From Candidatus Zixiibacteriota bacterium (GTDB lineage Bacteria > Zixibacteria > MSB-5A5 > GN15 > FEB-12), in the NCBI GenBank assembly GCA_024280215.1, contig JAJRQO010000015.1:62001-126000 (forward strand): DNA of 64,000 bases. Reading direction: 5' to 3'. The notes under the pieces are model-generated. The model was not told the origin of the DNA. It worked only from the letters and a program-made list of their open reading frames with translations, and did no database searches. The translations under genes and the position numbers were made by a program. Shown in pieces: positions 26,768-46,298 of this stretch. The number at the start of each line of letters is the position of its first letter. Positions within the stretch are counted from its first letter, which is position 1.

Positions 26768-26860
26768 CGTTTTACGAATAAGTTTCGTTTTGCCTGTTTT
26801 AAAGGTCAAATAGTTTCGTTCTTTTACTAAAACGCACAATCTGCGATAAGTAGATGTTTC

Positions 26861-26888
26861 TTGACAAAGTGTTATAATATTGTACCTT
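26861..26888 (+). promoter_or_regulatory. Candidate promoter upstream of the small exported protein
   Basis: TTGACA (26861-26866) is followed after 16 bases by TACCTT (26883-26888), about 105 bases before the start at 26995. A perfect TATAAT at 26873-26878 lies in the spacer but is too close to this -35 box. The 227-base gap after the glycosyltransferase gene otherwise shows only a very short open frame (26904-26966). Confidence 0.35.
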
Positions 26889-26994
26889 AGGGGAAAGCAA
26901 ATAATGCGTCAAGAATTACATTCTTTAGTTGTTTCGATGTTTTACAATAAATATAAAAGTAAATAATATTATTAACTCATAGGAGAGAATGCCA

Positions 26995-27363
26995 ATGAAA
27001 CGCTCAATTTTATTCAGTTTAGTCTTTGTCTTTGCTGTTTCAGCATGTTTTTTCTCTTCGGCTGTTTTAGCGGGTGAAGGGAACGATAGTAGGGGTCCTG
27101 GTTCTAACGGGATTGATCCTTGGGATGTTGATGTAGTAGTGAATGATACTACTGATGGTACTACATTTTCATCGTCTCGTGTAAACGACTCAAGATTTCA
27201 AGACTCATTTATCTTTTCTACTTTTTCACTTTCATCCAGTTTTGTATTGTGGATTTTTGAAGACGAACTTATTTCTATTCAAAAAAGACAGACCGAAGTG
27301 ATTCATCAAACAAGTAATAATTTTCGAGGTAGTCGTTATCGCACGAATAAACTAACGGATTAA
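26995..27363 (+). CDS. Small exported protein of unknown function
   Basis: I do not recognise this 122-residue protein. The ATG at 26995 has AGGAG 9 bases upstream, better than the ATG at 26989. A Sec signal peptide is clear (MKRSILFSLVFVFAVSACFF, likely cut after SSAVLA), so it is periplasmic or secreted. The mature part begins with a small, Gly/Asp-rich segment (GEGNDSRGPGSNGIDPWD), then a Ser/Thr stretch, a hydrophobic stretch (about residues 70-90) that might be a membrane helix, and a basic Asn/Arg-rich end. The sigma54 activator gene follows after 27 bases, so the two may be co-transcribed. It could be a sensed or secreted partner of that regulator; nothing proves it. Confidence 0.6.
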   Translation: MKRSILFSLVFVFAVSACFFSSAVLAGEGNDSRGPGSNGIDPWDVDVVVNDTTDGTTFSSSRVNDSRFQDSFIFSTFSLSSSFVLWIFEDELISIQKRQTEVIHQTSNNFRGSRYRTNKLTD

Positions 27364-27390: not shown

Positions 27391-30327
27391 ATGAATCTTT
27401 CCTCGCCAAACATTATATTTGATGATAAGTTGTTAGCTGTAGAAGAATACTTCCGTCAAAGAAAATATAAAACTGCCACTGAAGAGTTTGAGAAATTAGA
27501 ACTCGCTTCGTTTCAAGAGAAAGAGTATGAACTTGGTTTATATTACTCTTTGGCCGCTGATGCAGAATATTTTAAAAGTAATTACAAGAATTCAATCCAA
27601 AATGGGCTAAAGGGAGTCAAACTCCTTGCTGACTATCCTCTTAACAGACGTTTCGGGAAAATCCAACTCATCCTTTCTAAGGCATATAATGCTGTTGGTG
27701 ACTTAAAAAATGCTGAAATGAGAGCCAGGGATGCTTTGGCATCTTACCGAAGATGTGGTGATGAAGTCGGTCAAGCTGATTCATTAAACCATATTGCTGG
27801 TGTTGCATTCGTAAGATGTAATTATGATGATGTTATTGAATGTCTCGAAGAAGGTTTAACTCTTGTTCGAAACAATCCAAGAAAAGTTGCTCAGCTCCGT
27901 GGGAACCTTGCACGGACACGTCTTTTTACAGGTCAATGGAAAATTGCTGAAGAAGAAACATTAGAGGTCTTAGAATATAACTTAGCCAATAATGATGAAA
28001 CTCCTCTTGCTATGAATAAACTCAGTTTAGCTAAATTACAAATGCGACTGAGAAAATTTCACCTCGCTTCAAAAACATTGGACTCGGCATTAGAAATTAT
28101 CTATAGACTTGATTTGAAACGTGAAAAAGTTATTTATTTGGAATATGCTGGTGAGTTAGCTTTTGCCAAAGGAGATAATTTTAAAGCAAAATCTCTCTTT
28201 GCAAAAGCATATCAACAAGGTATGCTTATAGCTCCTGATTCTGACATGGTATCGCAGACTGTTCGTCGTCTTGCTGAGGTTGAACTCGCATTAGATAATA
28301 TCGACGATGCGATGAAATATGCTCAGAAAGCACTTGAAACTTCACTTTCCATTGGTGAAAAAGATGAAGTAGGTCATTCCAAAAAAGTTATTGCTCAGAT
28401 TTTTTCTACACAAGGTGAACATGATGATGCTATGGAATATATTGTACAGGCGATTGATTTAATTCGTGAAGTTGGCGATCCTTTTGAGCTTGCTCGAGCA
28501 TTACTTGTTTTCATTGATATTAAGATAAAAGCACGTTCTGAAAAATCTGATAAAATTAAGCTGATTCTTGAAGAAGTTTCTAAAATTTTTCAAAAACTTA
28601 ATCTCTCTTTTTGGATGGCTGAGACTGAATTTAAAGCGGGACAATTTTATTGCCAGCATGGAAATTTAGCTCAAGGGTTCAAATCGCTTTCAAAAGCTGA
28701 AAAAATTTATACTGAGTTAGATGATACTGTTAAAAATAGAGCCGTAGCTAAATTTTTAAAATCATTATCTGATCAAGCAGTTGCGTTTTCTGTCTCTCAG
28801 GAAAATGAATTTAAAATATTTGGCAACCTGATTACACCATCTGAAATTTCAAATATTAAAACAAGCCAAATGGATCAAATTTTACAAGTGCTACTCAACC
28901 GTTCTGGTGGTGATAGAGCTTTGGTCTATACTCCCGACTTTGACGAATCTCCAATTTCAACTTCGTTTCCAATGTCAAAAAATCAAATGACAAAGTTTGC
29001 TTCAAAATTTGAGAACCTACTCGGTGAAGAAATTTCAAAATCAAAACCTTCTATTATCTTAGATTGTCGCCGTGATCCATTTATTAACGGTCTGTTTGTT
29101 GACTCCGCTGAAGTTGTCTCAAGCATGATTGTGGTACCGTTTAAGATGAGTGATGGGCAGGTGAGCTATCTCTATATTGACAAAATTAGTCGAAATAATA
29201 CTTTGAACCCATTTAGTCAGGATGAACTCAACTTTGCGGTTGGATTCTCTGATATTATTACTTTCAAATGGGCTGAAATTCAAAAACAAAAACTTATTGA
29301 AGACAATCTAAGACTTAAAGATCAATTGCGTCAAAAAGCTGCTTTCCCGAATATTATTACAAAAAACAGTTCAATGCTTGAAATGCTTGCACAAGTTAGG
29401 CAAGTACTGGATTCTAATATTTCACTTTCTATTGAGGGCGAAACTGGTTCAGGAAAAGATGTCTTAGCTCAGGCAATTCATTATAATTGTAACCGTCGAG
29501 ACAAACGTTTTATCTCAGTCAACTGTGCCGCTCTTCCTGAAACTCTTTTAGAATCAGAACTCTTTGGTTATCGCCGTGGTGCTTTTACAGGTGCTGATAG
29601 AGATAAGTGTGGCCTATTTGAAGAAGCCGATGGTGGCACATTTTTCCTTGATGAAATTGGTGATATGCCACTTACCATACAAGCAAAGGTTCTTCGGATA
29701 TTAGAAGAAAAAGAAATTGTACGGTTAGGGGAAACGACGCCTCGTAAAGTTGATGTGCGAATTATTTCAGCTACGAATAGAGACTTAAAAGAGTTGATGA
29801 GCGAAAAGCTGTTTAGGCAGGACTTGTACTATCGTCTCTCAGCTTTAACTTTTAAATTACCACCATTAAGAGATCGCAAGGATGATATTCCTCTTTTGGT
29901 TAATCATTTCTTAAAAGACTCCAATAAGACTATTTCCGTAACTGCGCTAAAATATTTGGTTGATTATGAATGGCCAGGAAATATTCGTGAGTTGGAAAAT
30001 GAAATTAAAAAATTAATACTCTTAACTGGTGATGATGTCGAAATTAGCCCTGCTTTGATTTCTAATTCAATCAATAAAAACATGACTGAAATTCCAAAGC
30101 AATACCAAAGTATAAATGAAATTTCGGAGCAAATTGACTTTAATGCTGACTTTGGGCTTTATGACTATTTGGAACAGCATGAAAGAGTTTTTATACAAAA
30201 GGCTCTCGAAGAGAAAAAGGGTGTAAAAAAACATGCTGCTGACTTGTTAAATATCCCTGAGTCAACCTTGAGACTTAAAATCAAACAATACAATATTGAT
30301 TTGACACAAATTAAAAAGAAAAAATAA
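27391..30327 (+). CDS. Sigma54-dependent transcriptional activator with TPR and GAF-like sensory domains
   Basis: A 978-residue cytoplasmic enhancer-binding protein. The first 470 residues are a long run of TPR-like helices, an unusual sensor for this class. Residues about 490-640 look like a GAF domain. The AAA+ domain (about 660-895) holds the Walker A motif GETGSGKD, the sigma54-contacting loop GAFTGAD (about 730) and Walker B GGTFFLDEIGD. A Fis-type helix-turn-helix ends the protein (KKHAADLLNIPESTLRLKI, about 945-965). It has no receiver domain, so a phosphorelay is unlikely; the TPRs may bind a protein or peptide. Only 27 bases separate it from the small exported protein. A strong sigma54 promoter at 40477-40492 is a possible target. 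Confidence 0.9.
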   Translation: MNLSSPNIIFDDKLLAVEEYFRQRKYKTATEEFEKLELASFQEKEYELGLYYSLAADAEYFKSNYKNSIQNGLKGVKLLADYPLNRRFGKIQLILSKAYNAVGDLKNAEMRARDALASYRRCGDEVGQADSLNHIAGVAFVRCNYDDVIECLEEGLTLVRNNPRKVAQLRGNLARTRLFTGQWKIAEEETLEVLEYNLANNDETPLAMNKLSLAKLQMRLRKFHLASKTLDSALEIIYRLDLKREKVIYLEYAGELAFAKGDNFKAKSLFAKAYQQGMLIAPDSDMVSQTVRRLAEVELALDNIDDAMKYAQKALETSLSIGEKDEVGHSKKVIAQIFSTQGEHDDAMEYIVQAIDLIREVGDPFELARALLVFIDIKIKARSEKSDKIKLILEEVSKIFQKLNLSFWMAETEFKAGQFYCQHGNLAQGFKSLSKAEKIYTELDDTVKNRAVAKFLKSLSDQAVAFSVSQENEFKIFGNLITPSEISNIKTSQMDQILQVLLNRSGGDRALVYTPDFDESPISTSFPMSKNQMTKFASKFENLLGEEISKSKPSIILDCRRDPFINGLFVDSAEVVSSMIVVPFKMSDGQVSYLYIDKISRNNTLNPFSQDELNFAVGFSDIITFKWAEIQKQKLIEDNLRLKDQLRQKAAFPNIITKNSSMLEMLAQVRQVLDSNISLSIEGETGSGKDVLAQAIHYNCNRRDKRFISVNCAALPETLLESELFGYRRGAFTGADRDKCGLFEEADGGTFFLDEIGDMPLTIQAKVLRILEEKEIVRLGETTPRKVDVRIISATNRDLKELMSEKLFRQDLYYRLSALTFKLPPLRDRKDDIPLLVNHFLKDSNKTISVTALKYLVDYEWPGNIRELENEIKKLILLTGDDVEISPALISNSINKNMTEIPKQYQSINEISEQIDFNADFGLYDYLEQHERVFIQKALEEKKGVKKHAADLLNIPESTLRLKIKQYNIDLTQIKKKK

Positions 30328-40266: not shown

Positions 40267-40476
40267 CTTTTAAAGATATGAAAATTATTGCCTCTTTGCT
40301 TATAATATTTTGCATCCATTTTTACCCTCCTAAATGAAGATTGTGCTAAGTTTTGCATTGTTGTGAAAATTATTTCGACAAATCAAATAAGGTCTGCTAA
40401 CCAATTTGCCTTAGTAATTCCCACTCTAACAAAGAGATACGTTTAACGTCTGAATGATTGGTTTACTGCTTCGGAT

Positions 40477-40492
40477 TGGCATGTCCCTTGCA
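40477..40492 (+). promoter_or_regulatory. Sigma54 (RpoN) promoter of the secreted protease operon
   Basis: TGGCATGTCCCTTGCA matches the sigma54 consensus TGGCACGnnnnTTGCA at every defined base but one, with GG and GC exactly 10 bases apart. Transcription would start near 40503, leaving a short leader that holds the AGGAG ribosome site of the S8 protease gene. A weaker sigma70-like reading (TTGCAA 40488-40493, TTATAA 40510-40515) overlaps it. Confidence 0.75.
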
Positions 40493-40530
40493 AAAGAGTA
40501 ATACGGACTTTATAAATTTTAGGAGAATCA

Positions 40531-43419
40531 ATGAGCTATTCTACTATTAAATCGATATTTCAAACTGTTCTATTATTACTTCTACTTACTTCAGTTGCCT
40601 CAGCCTCGGTTTTATCACCTCGGTTATCCGTGGCAAACGATTCTGACTCGCTTATAACGGTTGTTGTCTTTCTTGATACATACGAACAATCTTCTAAGCT
40701 ACAACTTATGGCACCAGCAAACAGAAGTTATAACCGTGCTGAAAATATCAAAAATGTAATCTCAAAACTAACTTCATATAGAGCGGACAATCAATTAAAT
40801 ATTGAATCTTATCTGAATCAAAATTCTAAAGAAAAAATTATCAAACATTGGATTGTACCTGCCTATACTGCTCAGCTTACTTTGACAGAAATTAAAATAT
40901 TGTCAGAATTACAAGGGGTAAAATCTATTATTGAAAATGCACAGCTTAACTTTGAAGCACCTATCAAAAATGTGCCTGCACCTCTATCAACTTCTATCGC
41001 AATATCAAATGAGCTTTCTCTTATGAATATTCCTGCTCTATGGAATAAAGGTCTTAAAGGAAAAGGCTCTTTAATTTGTTCGTTCGATACAGGTGTTGAT
41101 GGAACCCATCCTGCTCTTGCTTCTAAATGGAGAGGAAACCATACTGCTCTTTCTGCTTCATGGTTTTCAAAGGTTGCTCCTGAATCATTACCACAAGATG
41201 CGACTGGGCATGGTACCCATACAATGGGGGTTATGGTTGGTTCTATGGATGCTGATTCATTTGGTGTAGCTCCTGAAGCAGAATGGATTACCGCTGGTGT
41301 TATTGACCAAGGTCGTAGTTTAAGTATGACCTTAAGTGATATTATCGAGGCGTTCCAATGGTCATTAAATCCTGATGGTGATGTTAGTACAACTGATGAT
41401 GTTCCTGATGTTATTTTAAATAGCTGGGGGATTCCAAAAGGACTTTTCTTCCCATGTGATGATACTTTTTGGGGTGTCATTGACAATGTTGAAGCGGCAG
41501 GAATCGTTACTATATTTGCTGCTGGTAATGAAGGCCCTGAACCGATGTCAATTCGTTCACCTGCCGACAGAGCAACAACACCACTTAACTCTTTTTCTGT
41601 CGGGGCAGTGAATATAAATAAAGAAGTTGCTGACTTTTCAAGTCGGGGTCCTTCATCATGTGACCCAACGCAAATCAAACCTGAAGTTGTCGCCCCTGGT
41701 GTCAATATCCGTTCTTCCACAAAAGGTGGTGGGTTTGCTTATATGTCTGGTACTTCAATGGCGGCTCCATATATTGCTGGTTCGGTTGCTTTAATTCGTC
41801 AGTACAATGAAAACGCAACTGTTGAGCAAATTAAAAATGCATTTATCCAAGCAGCGATTGACTTAGGTGAAGCGAACGAAGATAATTCATACGGTCACGG
41901 CTTTGTCGATTTACAATCAATTTTACAATATATCCCGCTTCCTCTAAATCCATTATATGAAATTACATCATATAATTTTTCTAATCCGTACATTCTTCCA
42001 GGTGAATCATTTGAGCTTTTCTTAACTTTACAAAATTCTTTTGCAAATGTTGAAACTGCCATTGTACAAATAAAATCAGCAGATACCAATCTGACTATCC
42101 AGTCTAACTCTGAGACTTTCTTCTTTGGTGTTGATGGTACAATCGCACAAAATGCTAACGCTTACCAGATGACTCTCGATTCATCACTTGCCCATGGAGC
42201 AATTGTCGATCTTCAAGTTCTTATTAGCTCTACAAACACAACAGCAATCGACACCGTAGCACTTTCACTTACTGTTGGTGTACCATCGCAGGGTACAGTT
42301 GCGACTCATCAAAATTCTAAACTCAATCTTTCAGTCTCTGACTTTGGTTCATTCGGATTTGCTCCGGGTTCACTGTATAACCTCTCAAGTGATGGTTTTA
42401 GATTTAATAACTCACCAAATCTTCTCTATGAAACAGGTCTTGTCATCGGTCGTTCAGCACTTCAAATGTCAACTTCTATCCGTGATGAAAACGGCTCATT
42501 CAAAAAGTCCGATTTTAATCCGATTGTTTCACTTAGTGGCTCATCACTTTCTGCCTCTGGTGAAGAAAGTCGTACTGCTGTGTTTGATGACAGTAAATCA
42601 ACCACAGCAATTCCTATTGAAGTTCATCAGGAAACTATCCACTCAAATATTAGTGGGGAAGAGGGACTACTTATTGTTAAATACCGATTGGAAAATAGTT
42701 CAATCCAAACTATTTCAAACTTATACTTTGGTGCCTTACATGATTTCGATTTATCACAATCAGATAAGCTCCAATTTGATAACTCTCTTTCTTTGGTCTA
42801 TCAAACTGATGATAACGGTATCTATGTTGGTGTCGTAGCTCTTAAAAATATCGACTCGTTCAGAATGTTTGAAAACTCAAATGGTAAAATCGGTTTTACA
42901 AATAATGAACTGTTTATAACTCTTACCGAACAACAAAACAATATTGATAACTCTGTTGTAGGTGATATGATGTTTTTCACCTCCTCAGCACTTTTCTCAC
43001 TCGCTCCCAATCAATCATTTGAAATAGCTTATGCTTATGTTTGTGGCAACTCAATCAATGAATTGTATGACAACGCTGTTTTGGCTCAACAAAAATTTGA
43101 TATTACAACTGGTATTGATGACAATAATGTGAATCTTCCAAAACAGTTTGAGCTTCTTCAAAATTATCCGAACCCTTTTAACCCGACCACGACAATCCAG
43201 TTTAATCTCGCATCATCTTCTGATATCAAACTTGAAATTTACAATGTCTTAGGACAAAAGGTTAAAACCCTCGTTAATCGCAATCTTCCTGCTGGGTCGC
43301 ATGAATACCAATGGGATGCGACCGACAATGCAAATAGTTCTGTCGCAAGTGGGATTTATTTCTACAAATTAAGCTCTGACACGCAGTTTGAAACGCAAAA
43401 AATGACACTTTTAAAATAA
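40531..43419 (+). CDS. Secreted subtilisin-like (S8) serine protease with C-terminal sorting domain
   Basis: A 962-residue secreted protease. Signal peptide at about 1-25, then a propeptide to about 165. The catalytic domain shows the triad Asp in FDTGVDGTHP (about 186), His in GHGTHTMGV (about 228), the oxyanion Asn in FAAGNEG, and Ser in GTSMAAPYIAGS (about 409). After beta-rich domains it ends with a type-IX-like sorting domain: NYPNPFNPTTTIQF, NVLGQKVKTL, WDATD and ASGIYFYKL. AGGAG lies 7 bases before the ATG, and a near-consensus sigma54 promoter is 39 bases upstream. The M6 protease gene follows after 78 bases without a terminator, so both are probably one unit for extracellular protein degradation. 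Confidence 0.92.
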   Translation: MSYSTIKSIFQTVLLLLLLTSVASASVLSPRLSVANDSDSLITVVVFLDTYEQSSKLQLMAPANRSYNRAENIKNVISKLTSYRADNQLNIESYLNQNSKEKIIKHWIVPAYTAQLTLTEIKILSELQGVKSIIENAQLNFEAPIKNVPAPLSTSIAISNELSLMNIPALWNKGLKGKGSLICSFDTGVDGTHPALASKWRGNHTALSASWFSKVAPESLPQDATGHGTHTMGVMVGSMDADSFGVAPEAEWITAGVIDQGRSLSMTLSDIIEAFQWSLNPDGDVSTTDDVPDVILNSWGIPKGLFFPCDDTFWGVIDNVEAAGIVTIFAAGNEGPEPMSIRSPADRATTPLNSFSVGAVNINKEVADFSSRGPSSCDPTQIKPEVVAPGVNIRSSTKGGGFAYMSGTSMAAPYIAGSVALIRQYNENATVEQIKNAFIQAAIDLGEANEDNSYGHGFVDLQSILQYIPLPLNPLYEITSYNFSNPYILPGESFELFLTLQNSFANVETAIVQIKSADTNLTIQSNSETFFFGVDGTIAQNANAYQMTLDSSLAHGAIVDLQVLISSTNTTAIDTVALSLTVGVPSQGTVATHQNSKLNLSVSDFGSFGFAPGSLYNLSSDGFRFNNSPNLLYETGLVIGRSALQMSTSIRDENGSFKKSDFNPIVSLSGSSLSASGEESRTAVFDDSKSTTAIPIEVHQETIHSNISGEEGLLIVKYRLENSSIQTISNLYFGALHDFDLSQSDKLQFDNSLSLVYQTDDNGIYVGVVALKNIDSFRMFENSNGKIGFTNNELFITLTEQQNNIDNSVVGDMMFFTSSALFSLAPNQSFEIAYAYVCGNSINELYDNAVLAQQKFDITTGIDDNNVNLPKQFELLQNYPNPFNPTTTIQFNLASSSDIKLEIYNVLGQKVKTLVNRNLPAGSHEYQWDATDNANSSVASGIYFYKLSSDTQFETQKMTLLK

Positions 43420-43497
43420 GACTTTACAATGACTGGAACAGTCTACAAATTAGAATGTTTAAAGAGAATATAACTAAGATAAACAAAGGCATAGATA

Positions 43498-46242
43498 ATG
43501 TTAGAAATTAAAAAATTGACAAAGAGCTTACTTTTACTTCTGCTTACATTGAGTTTTTCGGCTCAAATTGTATTTGCCGTCGCCCCATCTGAGGAGGTCG
43601 TCGCTAAATGGAAACAAGATGGCGTATATGAACAACGCATGGAAATTTTACATGACTTCCACAAACGTGGTGGTTGTTCTCCCGTTGAGCATGCTCAACT
43701 TAAAAAAAATAACTTCTTAGCCTCTGGTGTTAATGTTGTTGATACTATTCGGGTTTTAGTCTTGATGGTTGATTTCTCTGACCATCCTATGGATGCAGGT
43801 CTGAATGGAACCAAGCTTGATTTTGATTCTATCCTCTTTTCTGAAAATTTCCATAACCCAACTGGTTCTATGACTGACTATTATCTTGAAAACTCCTATG
43901 GAAATTTCTATATCCAAGGTGAAATCTTTGGCACATATCGTATGCCACAAACATACGCATACTATACCAATGGTGAGAGTGGACTTGGTAGCTATCCTCA
44001 AAATGCTCAAACTATGGTCAATGATGCTGTTTCTATGGCTGATAGTGCAGTTGATTTTTCAAGATATGATTTTAATAATGACAATATCTGTGATGGGGTT
44101 ATTCTGATTCACTCAGGACCAGGTGCTGAATTAACTGGTTCTGGTGATGATATTTGGTCTCACAAATGGAATCTCGCGAATCACCGAATTTTAGATGGTG
44201 TTGATGTGTACAACTATAATATGAACCCTGAAGAATATGGCTTTGGTGCGGGTGCCGAACTTTCTCCGATTGGTGTTTTCTGTCATGAATACGGTCACTT
44301 TTTAGGCTTACCTGATTTATACGATACAAACCCACTTAATACAAACTCTGAAGGTCTCGGAAGATGGTCTCTCATGGCTTCTGGAAACTACAACGGCGAC
44401 TCCAAAGTACCTGCTCATTTTGACCCATGGTCTAAAAGTGAACTTGGATTCATAAATCTTATTGATGTCACTGATAATCTTTATAATCAGGAAATCCCTC
44501 AAATCGAAACATCACCTGTCGCATATAAACTTTATAACGCCTCTGGTTCTACAACTGAATATTTTATTGTTGAAAATAGACAAAGAGTCGGTTTTGATTT
44601 GTTTCTCCCAAGTGAAGGAATGTTAATTTATCATATAGATGATACAAAGTCTACAAACACTAACTTTTTAAACTATAAAGTTGCATTAGAGCAAGCTGAT
44701 GGACTCGATCAATTAGCTTTTGCTGGTTCCAATGGTGATGCAGGAGACCCTTTCCCTGGAGCATCAACTAATCGAAATTTTTCACACTATGATTTCCCGA
44801 ATTCTGATTACTATAATGGCTTTGAATCACAATTGTCCGTATGGAATATTACAGCTTCTGACTCACTCATGTATGCTGATCTTGATGTCACCTATTCAAG
44901 ACCGAAAATTGAACCTATTGGAGTGAACCCATTTGTTATGTCCGATGCTGACGGTGACGGTTATTTAGAAGCAGGCGAGACTATCACATTCAATTTCTCT
45001 ATTATAAATAGAATGAGACCAACAGAAAATGTACATGCTACTTTATCAAGTAACAATTCAGGCTTACAATTTACCCAAAATAATGTTACTATTTTAGGTA
45101 CTTTTAATGCTGCCCTTTTTGATAATCCATCTAACCCGATTGAGTTTATTGTCCCTGATACCCTGACTCCTCATATTGACTCATTTTTCTTAACGATAGT
45201 CACGGACTCTTTGGACGCTTCTAACCAACCTATCGCAGGAAGTGCAACGCACACAGAAGTTCTCGGTTTTGAAGTGACGCTTGGGAGACCAAATATCGTC
45301 ATTGTTGATGGTGACCGAGGTGCTGCCTTAGAACAGGAACTAAACAACGCTCTCTATGAAAAAAGAGTCCCTGCTGATATTTGGGACATTAACAACTCAG
45401 GTACACCTACTTTAGCTGACTTAACAGCTTACGACATGGTTCTCTGGCATACTGGTGATTCTGTTGGTGCTGGTCAAGCGATTACCGTTGCTGATATTTC
45501 GATTATGAAACAATTGATGGACAATGGTAAGCATGTCATGCTTTCGACGTTGACTGGTGTCGATGACATTTGGGCATTAGACTCTCTGTTTTTGATTAAC
45601 TATTTCCACGCTCGTAAAGATGTTGGTATAAAGTGGCCAATTTTAACTGGAGTTAGCGGTAACCCTGTTGGAGATGGGCTTGAGGTCGTTCCTGTTTTAA
45701 CAAAATTTTATACTACACCTACATTAGCACCAGCTGGTTCAGGATTACCATCTTTTACAGCCAATTCTCAAGTTGTAGGTGTAACATATGAAGGTACTTA
45801 TAAATCAGCTCTCTTTTCTTTTGCGGTAGAATATATCGATGATAATAGATCTTCTCAAAACACTAAAGCCGACCTCATCGCATCCGTTGTTGATTTCTTT
45901 GGTGGTGTTTCAACCGATATCTATGATGGCAATCCGTTTGCTCAAATTCCAAGTTCGTTTGTCTTAAACCAAAACTATCCGAACCCATTTAACCCATCAA
46001 CTACTATTCAATATACGATTAGACCAACAAAAGAACTTGGTGCGATTACTACACTTGAAGTCTTCAACATGTTGGGGCAGAGGGTGGTAACATTGGTCGA
46101 TAAAGCCCAAATTCCTGGTAATTACGCAGTTCAATGGGACGGAACCAACGCTGCCAATCAAGAAGTTGCCTCTGGAATCTACTTCTACCGTCTTGCTCGG
46201 GGAAGTGAAGTTGTATCCAAAAAAATGAATCTACTGAAATAA
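43498..46242 (+). CDS. Secreted M6 family metalloprotease (immune inhibitor A-like) with C-terminal sorting domain
   Basis: A 914-residue secreted zinc protease. Signal peptide about 1-27 (LLLLLLTLSFSAQIVFA). The M6 domain starts near residue 80 (VLVLMVDFSDHPM) and holds the zinc motif CHEYGHFLGLPDLYD at about 261-275 followed by the Met-turn region GRWSLMASGN, typical of immune inhibitor A-like enzymes. A middle section includes VMSDADGDGYLEAGE, a calcium-loop-like stretch, and CARDB-like beta domains. The end repeats the sorting domain of the S8 neighbour: NYPNPFNPSTTIQY and ASGIYFYRL. AAAGG lies about 8 bases before the ATG. A strong terminator follows. Function: digestion of extracellular protein. 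Confidence 0.9.
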   Translation: MLEIKKLTKSLLLLLLTLSFSAQIVFAVAPSEEVVAKWKQDGVYEQRMEILHDFHKRGGCSPVEHAQLKKNNFLASGVNVVDTIRVLVLMVDFSDHPMDAGLNGTKLDFDSILFSENFHNPTGSMTDYYLENSYGNFYIQGEIFGTYRMPQTYAYYTNGESGLGSYPQNAQTMVNDAVSMADSAVDFSRYDFNNDNICDGVILIHSGPGAELTGSGDDIWSHKWNLANHRILDGVDVYNYNMNPEEYGFGAGAELSPIGVFCHEYGHFLGLPDLYDTNPLNTNSEGLGRWSLMASGNYNGDSKVPAHFDPWSKSELGFINLIDVTDNLYNQEIPQIETSPVAYKLYNASGSTTEYFIVENRQRVGFDLFLPSEGMLIYHIDDTKSTNTNFLNYKVALEQADGLDQLAFAGSNGDAGDPFPGASTNRNFSHYDFPNSDYYNGFESQLSVWNITASDSLMYADLDVTYSRPKIEPIGVNPFVMSDADGDGYLEAGETITFNFSIINRMRPTENVHATLSSNNSGLQFTQNNVTILGTFNAALFDNPSNPIEFIVPDTLTPHIDSFFLTIVTDSLDASNQPIAGSATHTEVLGFEVTLGRPNIVIVDGDRGAALEQELNNALYEKRVPADIWDINNSGTPTLADLTAYDMVLWHTGDSVGAGQAITVADISIMKQLMDNGKHVMLSTLTGVDDIWALDSLFLINYFHARKDVGIKWPILTGVSGNPVGDGLEVVPVLTKFYTTPTLAPAGSGLPSFTANSQVVGVTYEGTYKSALFSFAVEYIDDNRSSQNTKADLIASVVDFFGGVSTDIYDGNPFAQIPSSFVLNQNYPNPFNPSTTIQYTIRPTKELGAITTLEVFNMLGQRVVTLVDKAQIPGNYAVQWDGTNAANQEVASGIYFYRLARGSEVVSKKMNLLK

Positions 46243-46268: not shown

Positions 46269-46298
46269 ATAGCCGCTCTTCCCAAGGGCGGCTATTTT
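46269..46298 (+). terminator. Rho-independent terminator after the protease operon
   Basis: An 8-base-pair GC-rich stem ATAGCCGC/GCGGCTAT encloses an 11-base loop and is followed by TTT and an AT-rich run. It lies 27 bases after the M6 protease stop. Confidence 0.85.

Follow-up and report, generated by a model that had tools for sequence, protein, structure and literature searches.

Predicted sigma54 control of an operon for two secreted proteases in Candidatus Zixiibacteriota

The genes for an S8 (subtilisin-type) protease and an M6 metalloprotease form a single operon in a Candidatus Zixiibacteriota bacterium, and control of this operon by sigma54 is strongly supported, since both its promoter and an enhancer-like palindrome further upstream are conserved. 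These features were identified by computation in a window of 64,000 nucleotides (contig JAJRQO010000015.1, positions 62,001 to 126,000), together with rpoN, enhancer-binding protein (EBP) genes and SprA in the genome from which the window comes (G000, 3.03 Mb). On sequence grounds, we consider it very probable that the S8-M6 operon carries a sigma54 promoter plus an enhancer.

The S8-M6 operon and its -24/-12 element

All features of the protease locus lie on the forward strand of the window:

40299..40316, + strand: distal enhancer-like element CTTATAATATTTTGCATC, the window's version of ccTGTAAAAnttTGCA (EM motif in 29 orthologues; conserved block)
40344..40367, + strand: second enhancer-like element TGCTAAGTTTTGCATTGTTGTGAA, three half-sites with a 10-bp period (one-mismatch matches to YGCAN6TGCR)
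40476..40492, + strand: predicted sigma54 -24/-12 promoter TTGGCATGTCCCTTGCA, with transcription expected to start near 40503
40531..43419, + strand: S8 (subtilisin-type) protease with signal peptide and T9SS type A sorting domain
43498..46242, + strand: M6 metalloprotease with HEYGHFLGLPD motif and T9SS type A sorting domain
46269..46295, + strand: intrinsic terminator closing the S8-M6 operon (12 pairs, 6 of them GC, T-rich tail)

The identities of both proteases were confirmed by Pfam and NCBIfam, and the triad residues D186, H227 and S409 of the S8 protease are invariant in 20 orthologues. Both proteins score above the cut-off of TIGR04183 (T9SS type A sorting domain), both have a signal peptide as judged by eye, and the genome encodes a SprA-type T9SS translocon (TIGR04189, 559.5 bits summed against a cut-off of 200). 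S8 and M6 thus combine the characters of T9SS cargo, namely a signal peptide and a type A sorting domain in a genome with SprA/Sov. The M6 gene begins after a gap of 78 nt in which a terminator was sought and none found; a strong one, a 12-bp stem followed by a T-run, lies 3' of M6. This agrees with the initial annotation, according to which M6 follows S8 without a terminator. Moreover, the adjacency of the two genes is conserved across the order. In another genome of the same genus (G002, C48:167362-170249), the S8 gene is spread over two frames with a stop, indicating that it is broken or misassembled there.

A near-perfect -24/-12 element had been noticed ahead of the S8 gene, and this description holds: TTGGCATGTCCCTTGCA differs by one base from the consensus TTGGCACN5TTGCA, its GG (-24) and GC (-12) are 12 nt apart, which is the sigma54 spacing, and it is conserved among relatives. 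The element starts 55 nt before the S8 ATG (40531), leaving 38 nt between its end and the ATG, and AGGAG is found just 5' of this start codon. Using an approximate PWM, it is the top-scoring -24/-12 site of the window (20.8 of 23.2 bits), followed by an intragenic runner-up (16.3 bits); among the one-mismatch matches in the window, it alone sits just 5' of a gene in the correct orientation. We infer that the predicted promoter at 40476-40492 is active. In the leader between promoter and start codon (40505-40530), a block GGACTTTATA-AATTTTAGGAG is conserved in the genus and appears similar by eye in other S8 orthologues.

As for the genomic background, rpoN, on whose presence the proposal depends, occurs in one intact copy (C12:54410, RpoN box ARRTVTKYRE). 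The sigma54 activation domain was matched 19 times, about 17 of the matches being strong, which corresponds to ~17 EBPs. Genome-wide, the -24/-12 motif was counted 54 times versus 11 for the reversed pattern (about five-fold), and exact GGCAYN5TTGCW 31 times versus 5 for the reversed control.

Conservation of the promoter and of the upstream palindrome

Of the 53 S8 orthologues of the order for which upstream DNA was available, 48 carry the exact pattern GGCAY-N5-TTGC ~50 nt 5' of the start codon. Four more carry one change, giving 52 of 53, and G044 alone has no site. For G023, from the window's family, the S8 protein and its site match the public record QNAF01000003.1 (Candidatus Zixiibacteriota bacterium B22_G1) without a difference over the compared part, in agreement with the assignment of the window to this phylum. 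The first comparison covered 29 orthologues, all of which share GG, CA and TTGC; the controls on this set gave 1/29 for the reversed pattern and 2/29 for the opposite strand. Elsewhere in the class, the exact pattern precedes 10 of the 20 best S8 matches, and four others have GGCAG at the right place (14/20). Most S8 orthologues read CGGCA rather than TGGCA at -24, a point that we counted against the sigma54 reading. The pattern was not found 5' of M6 (0/26), and it is exact in one of 20 S8 paralogues. The paralogues are not a fully clean negative control, since four in-order members from families f2 and f4 carry the sigma54-like GGCAY-N5-TCGC with a changed -12, in addition to the one with an exact site; none of these five promoters has the palindromic dyad described below, the distal one included (0/5).

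This palindrome, YGCA-N6-TGCR, is a predicted enhancer. Its proximal copies mostly start 24-47 nt before the -24 element, stepped near one helical turn (24/25, 35, 45), and its distal copies ~120-205 nt before it. Between -70 and 0, we counted 21 N6 copies versus 0.2 in shuffles, other spacings occurring 0-1 times; between -260 and -70, there were 11 N6 and 7 N5 copies versus 0.3 and 0.2 in shuffles, and beyond -260 the counts were at background level. The exact dyad is missing in 23 of 52 order-level S8 orthologues, and the distal dyad is present in 13 of the 14 class-level S8 promoters. When dyad and promoter were searched as one pattern in 61 genomes, 28 matches were obtained, 20 of them at S8, and the control gave 0. 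These upstream activator-type sites, present in relatives, are degenerate in the window, where no exact YGCAN6TGCR was found at the S8 promoter, and the sites in the window's own genus are weaker than in other relatives. The elements at 40299-40316 and 40344-40367 lie within blocks conserved in three species of the genus. We take the palindromes to be the activator's sites. Given that promoter and enhancer are kept class-wide, a dedicated signal probably switches on extracellular protein digestion.

Well-placed sigma54 sites in G000, with the ATG 44-79 nt downstream, were also found before flgB-like, PII-type and polysaccharide export (SLBB type) genes, and before genes for PEP-CTERM proteins, a PorV-family protein and several exported proteins; the gene was called flgB-like from its sequence, since the Pfam match to the rod domain is below cut-off. 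As the initial annotation had raised the question of whether other sorting-domain proteins carry such promoters, the genome was scanned, which yielded three further T9SS-sorted cases in G000. One site (C42:40188) precedes a 351 aa protein with fibronectin type III, another (C35:42538) a 909 aa protein whose ATG is 51 nt downstream, and the last (C17:14584) a tightly packed operon of genes for a 686-aa protein, a 439-aa (PorV-like) protein and an M6 protease. This three-gene operon (C17:14300-20600) thus ends in another T9SS-sorted M6 protease, and a similar arrangement seems present in G003 (contig C9). In many family genomes, small PEP-CTERM proteins have the sigma54 element GGCAYANCCTTTGCW but lack the TGCA dyad (eight loci), and therefore likely depend on a different activator. 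In G000, G042 and G050, the gene for a conserved ~206 aa protein of unknown family is likewise preceded by a sigma54 site, 58 nt from the ATG.

A candidate activator and the proposed mechanism

An EBP gene had been noted at 27391, upstream of the proteases, and the reading frame 27391-30327 does encode an EBP. Its locus comprises:

26833..26845, + strand: dyad CGCACAATCTGCG, 5' of the operon formed by the small gene and the EBP gene
26861..26888, + strand: putative sigma70-type promoter TTGACA-N16-TACCTT of this operon (TTGACA conserved between the dyads; -10 assigned by eye)
26896..26908, + strand: second dyad AGCAAATAATGCG, close to where transcription of the operon is expected to begin (nGCA-N5-TGCG conserved, alignment by eye)
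26989..27363, + strand: small exported protein of 124 aa with a signal peptide followed by a PWD motif, encoded directly 5' of the EBP gene
27391..30327, + strand: candidate activator with TPR superhelix (1-468), GAF-like domain (~485-632), AAA+ domain with GAFTGA, and Fis-type HTH

The EBP has 978 aa. Walker A and B and the GAFTGA loop are present in its AAA+ domain, and the C-terminal Fis-type HTH (PF02954) is near-invariant among orthologues; the AlphaFold model is good for the TPR, fair for the GAF-like and poor for the AAA+ part. Orthologues occur in nearly all of the 61 genomes. In 22 of them (20 of the family and two of f3), the gene shares the strand of S8 and is found 10-17 kb upstream of it, and it is unlinked to S8-M6 in G030 (same family) and in families f2 and f4, where the promoter is kept. 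The small exported protein precedes the EBP gene in 39 of 41 loci, P, W and D each being found in 37 of the 39. It also shows a hydrophobic C-terminal stretch.

Upstream of the small gene, CGCA-N5-TGCG is conserved in 25 of the 27 genomes of the family and in 14 of 14 from three other families. Dyads of this type flanking the TTGACA promoter suggest autoregulation or another regulator. We also considered these dyads (GGCGCAN5TGCG) as a sigma54 promoter and rejected this reading: the GG-GC spacing fits, but GG is not conserved. In the window's own genome, CGCAN5TGCG occurs at 16 places versus 7 in the control, an only two-fold difference, and most of the other copies lie in genes or have no ORF of at least 100 aa nearby.

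The 27391 protein is the best candidate for the activator of S8-M6, because it is conserved, linked to the proteases in 22 genomes and preceded by related half-sites, and because YGCAN5-6TGCR was not found 5' of the gene at eleven other EBP loci examined. Since the dyad spacing differs between the two loci and the linkage is broken in places, we give this TPR-GAF EBP an even chance of being the activator. Thus, from the earlier proposal that a TPR-type activator switches on the proteases, sigma54 control emerges strongly supported, and the identity of the activator only plausible.

In the mechanism that we propose, a sigma54 activator would occupy the YGCA-N6-TGCR sites ~25-45 and ~120-205 bp upstream of -24 and, on a signal, open the polymerase; sigma54-RNA polymerase would then start near 40503, from the promoter at 40476-40492, and transcribe S8 and M6 as far as the terminator (46295). 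The products would leave the cell via Sec and the type IX system and degrade extracellular protein. The sensing side may, speculatively, consist of the TPR domain of 27391 and the co-encoded small exported protein, whose mature N-terminus is predicted around GE(H/N)PWDxD. A Gram-negative peptide-TPR analogue with sigma54 output, in which the TPR of the EBP would sense this protein or a fragment of it directly or indirectly, the EBP would then activate S8-M6 and the dyads at its own promoter would serve autoregulation, is a long shot.

The sigma54 reading could fail at the promoter itself, if the -24/-12 match were due to chance or were not a promoter and transcription of the operon began at a conventional sigma70-type promoter. 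One match in one genome could indeed arise by chance, and sigma70-like matches are present in the AT-rich region upstream of S8. The class-wide, position-specific conservation of the element and the dyads at fixed spacing make this extremely improbable; moreover, the sequence TATAAT (40301-40306) is part of the conserved distal element, and a sister species has TGTAAA at this position. It is also unlikely, to a lesser degree, that the protein bound at the dyads is not the EBP but some other factor, a conventional activator or repressor. The centre of the proximal dyad, ~28 bp upstream of the -24 element, is nearer than a usual enhancer and would suit a factor that represses or bends DNA, but the distal dyads, more widely conserved in the class, stand at a classical enhancer distance (120-205 bp), and LuxO, a sigma54 EBP, uses the related site TTGCAWWWTGCAA (PMC10162802).

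The choice of activator is a closer matter. With ~17 EBPs in the genome, there is a little less than an even chance that the promoter is sigma54-dependent and answers to another of them, 27391 regulating something else. This would fit f2, f4 and G030, where the promoter persists far from the 27391 orthologue, as well as the 1 bp difference between N5 at the EBP promoter and mostly N6 at the protease promoter. On the other hand, the EBP and protease dyads share the same half-sites, the distal protease enhancer contains N5 copies as well, and the distribution, linkage and eleven-locus comparison described above favour 27391.

Significance and relation to known systems

Our results predict a class-wide, specific regulatory circuit for an uncultured phylum, made of promoter, enhancer and candidate activator, in which protein digestion by exported enzymes would not be constitutive but would be switched on by a signal in an all-or-none manner. 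On the basis of the enhancer sequence and the small exported partner, both the activator and its signal can be tested directly in a heterologous host. In the limited literature covered, we found neither published work joining Zixibacteria and sigma-54 nor an earlier report of such a sigma54-S8-M6 circuit.

Sigma54 has been proposed as the controller of the bacterial exterior (Francke et al. 2011, PMC3162934). The S8-M6 operon agrees with the theme of that survey in its -24/-12 element, expected EBP dependence and cell-surface targets, as do the sites at flgB-like, PII, SLBB polysaccharide export, PEP-CTERM and PorV-like genes. It differs in being an exported protease operon of an uncultured clade, whereas the theme as set out there covers polysaccharide, flagella, LPS, lipoproteins and wall precursors, without listing secreted proteases. 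In a 2025 survey of sigma54 regulons, the protease passages concern intracellular proteases (PMC12316311). The view that sigma54 control of extracellular proteases is uncommon fits the protease passages of these two surveys, which do not mention secreted S8/M6, within this limited literature.

In Porphyromonas gingivalis, T9SS is regulated by PorXY-SigP (PMC7712824). Both cases involve regulation touching T9SS export of proteases; there, an ECF sigma factor acts on the machinery, whereas here sigma54 would act on cargo genes and one PorV-family gene. The Vibrio qrr1 promoter, controlled by LuxO/SypG, is also a sigma54 promoter with two upstream palindromes and TGCA half-sites (PMC10162802), but its half-sites are separated by N3 (TTGCAWWWTGCAA), its EBPs are response regulators and its target is a small RNA.

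Finally, the locus may be compared with the RRNPP/RRNPPA regulators of Bacillota, such as PlcR and NprR (PMC11343458). No RRNPP structure was among the best 50 matches to the 27391 protein, which has neither the XRE-type HTH nor the Rap architecture of that family and is instead an AAA+ sigma54 activator with Fis-type HTH and GAF. What the two have in common is a TPR regulator, an adjacent exported small protein, whose role as a propeptide is putative here, and secreted proteases among the targets, which in our case are proposed ones.
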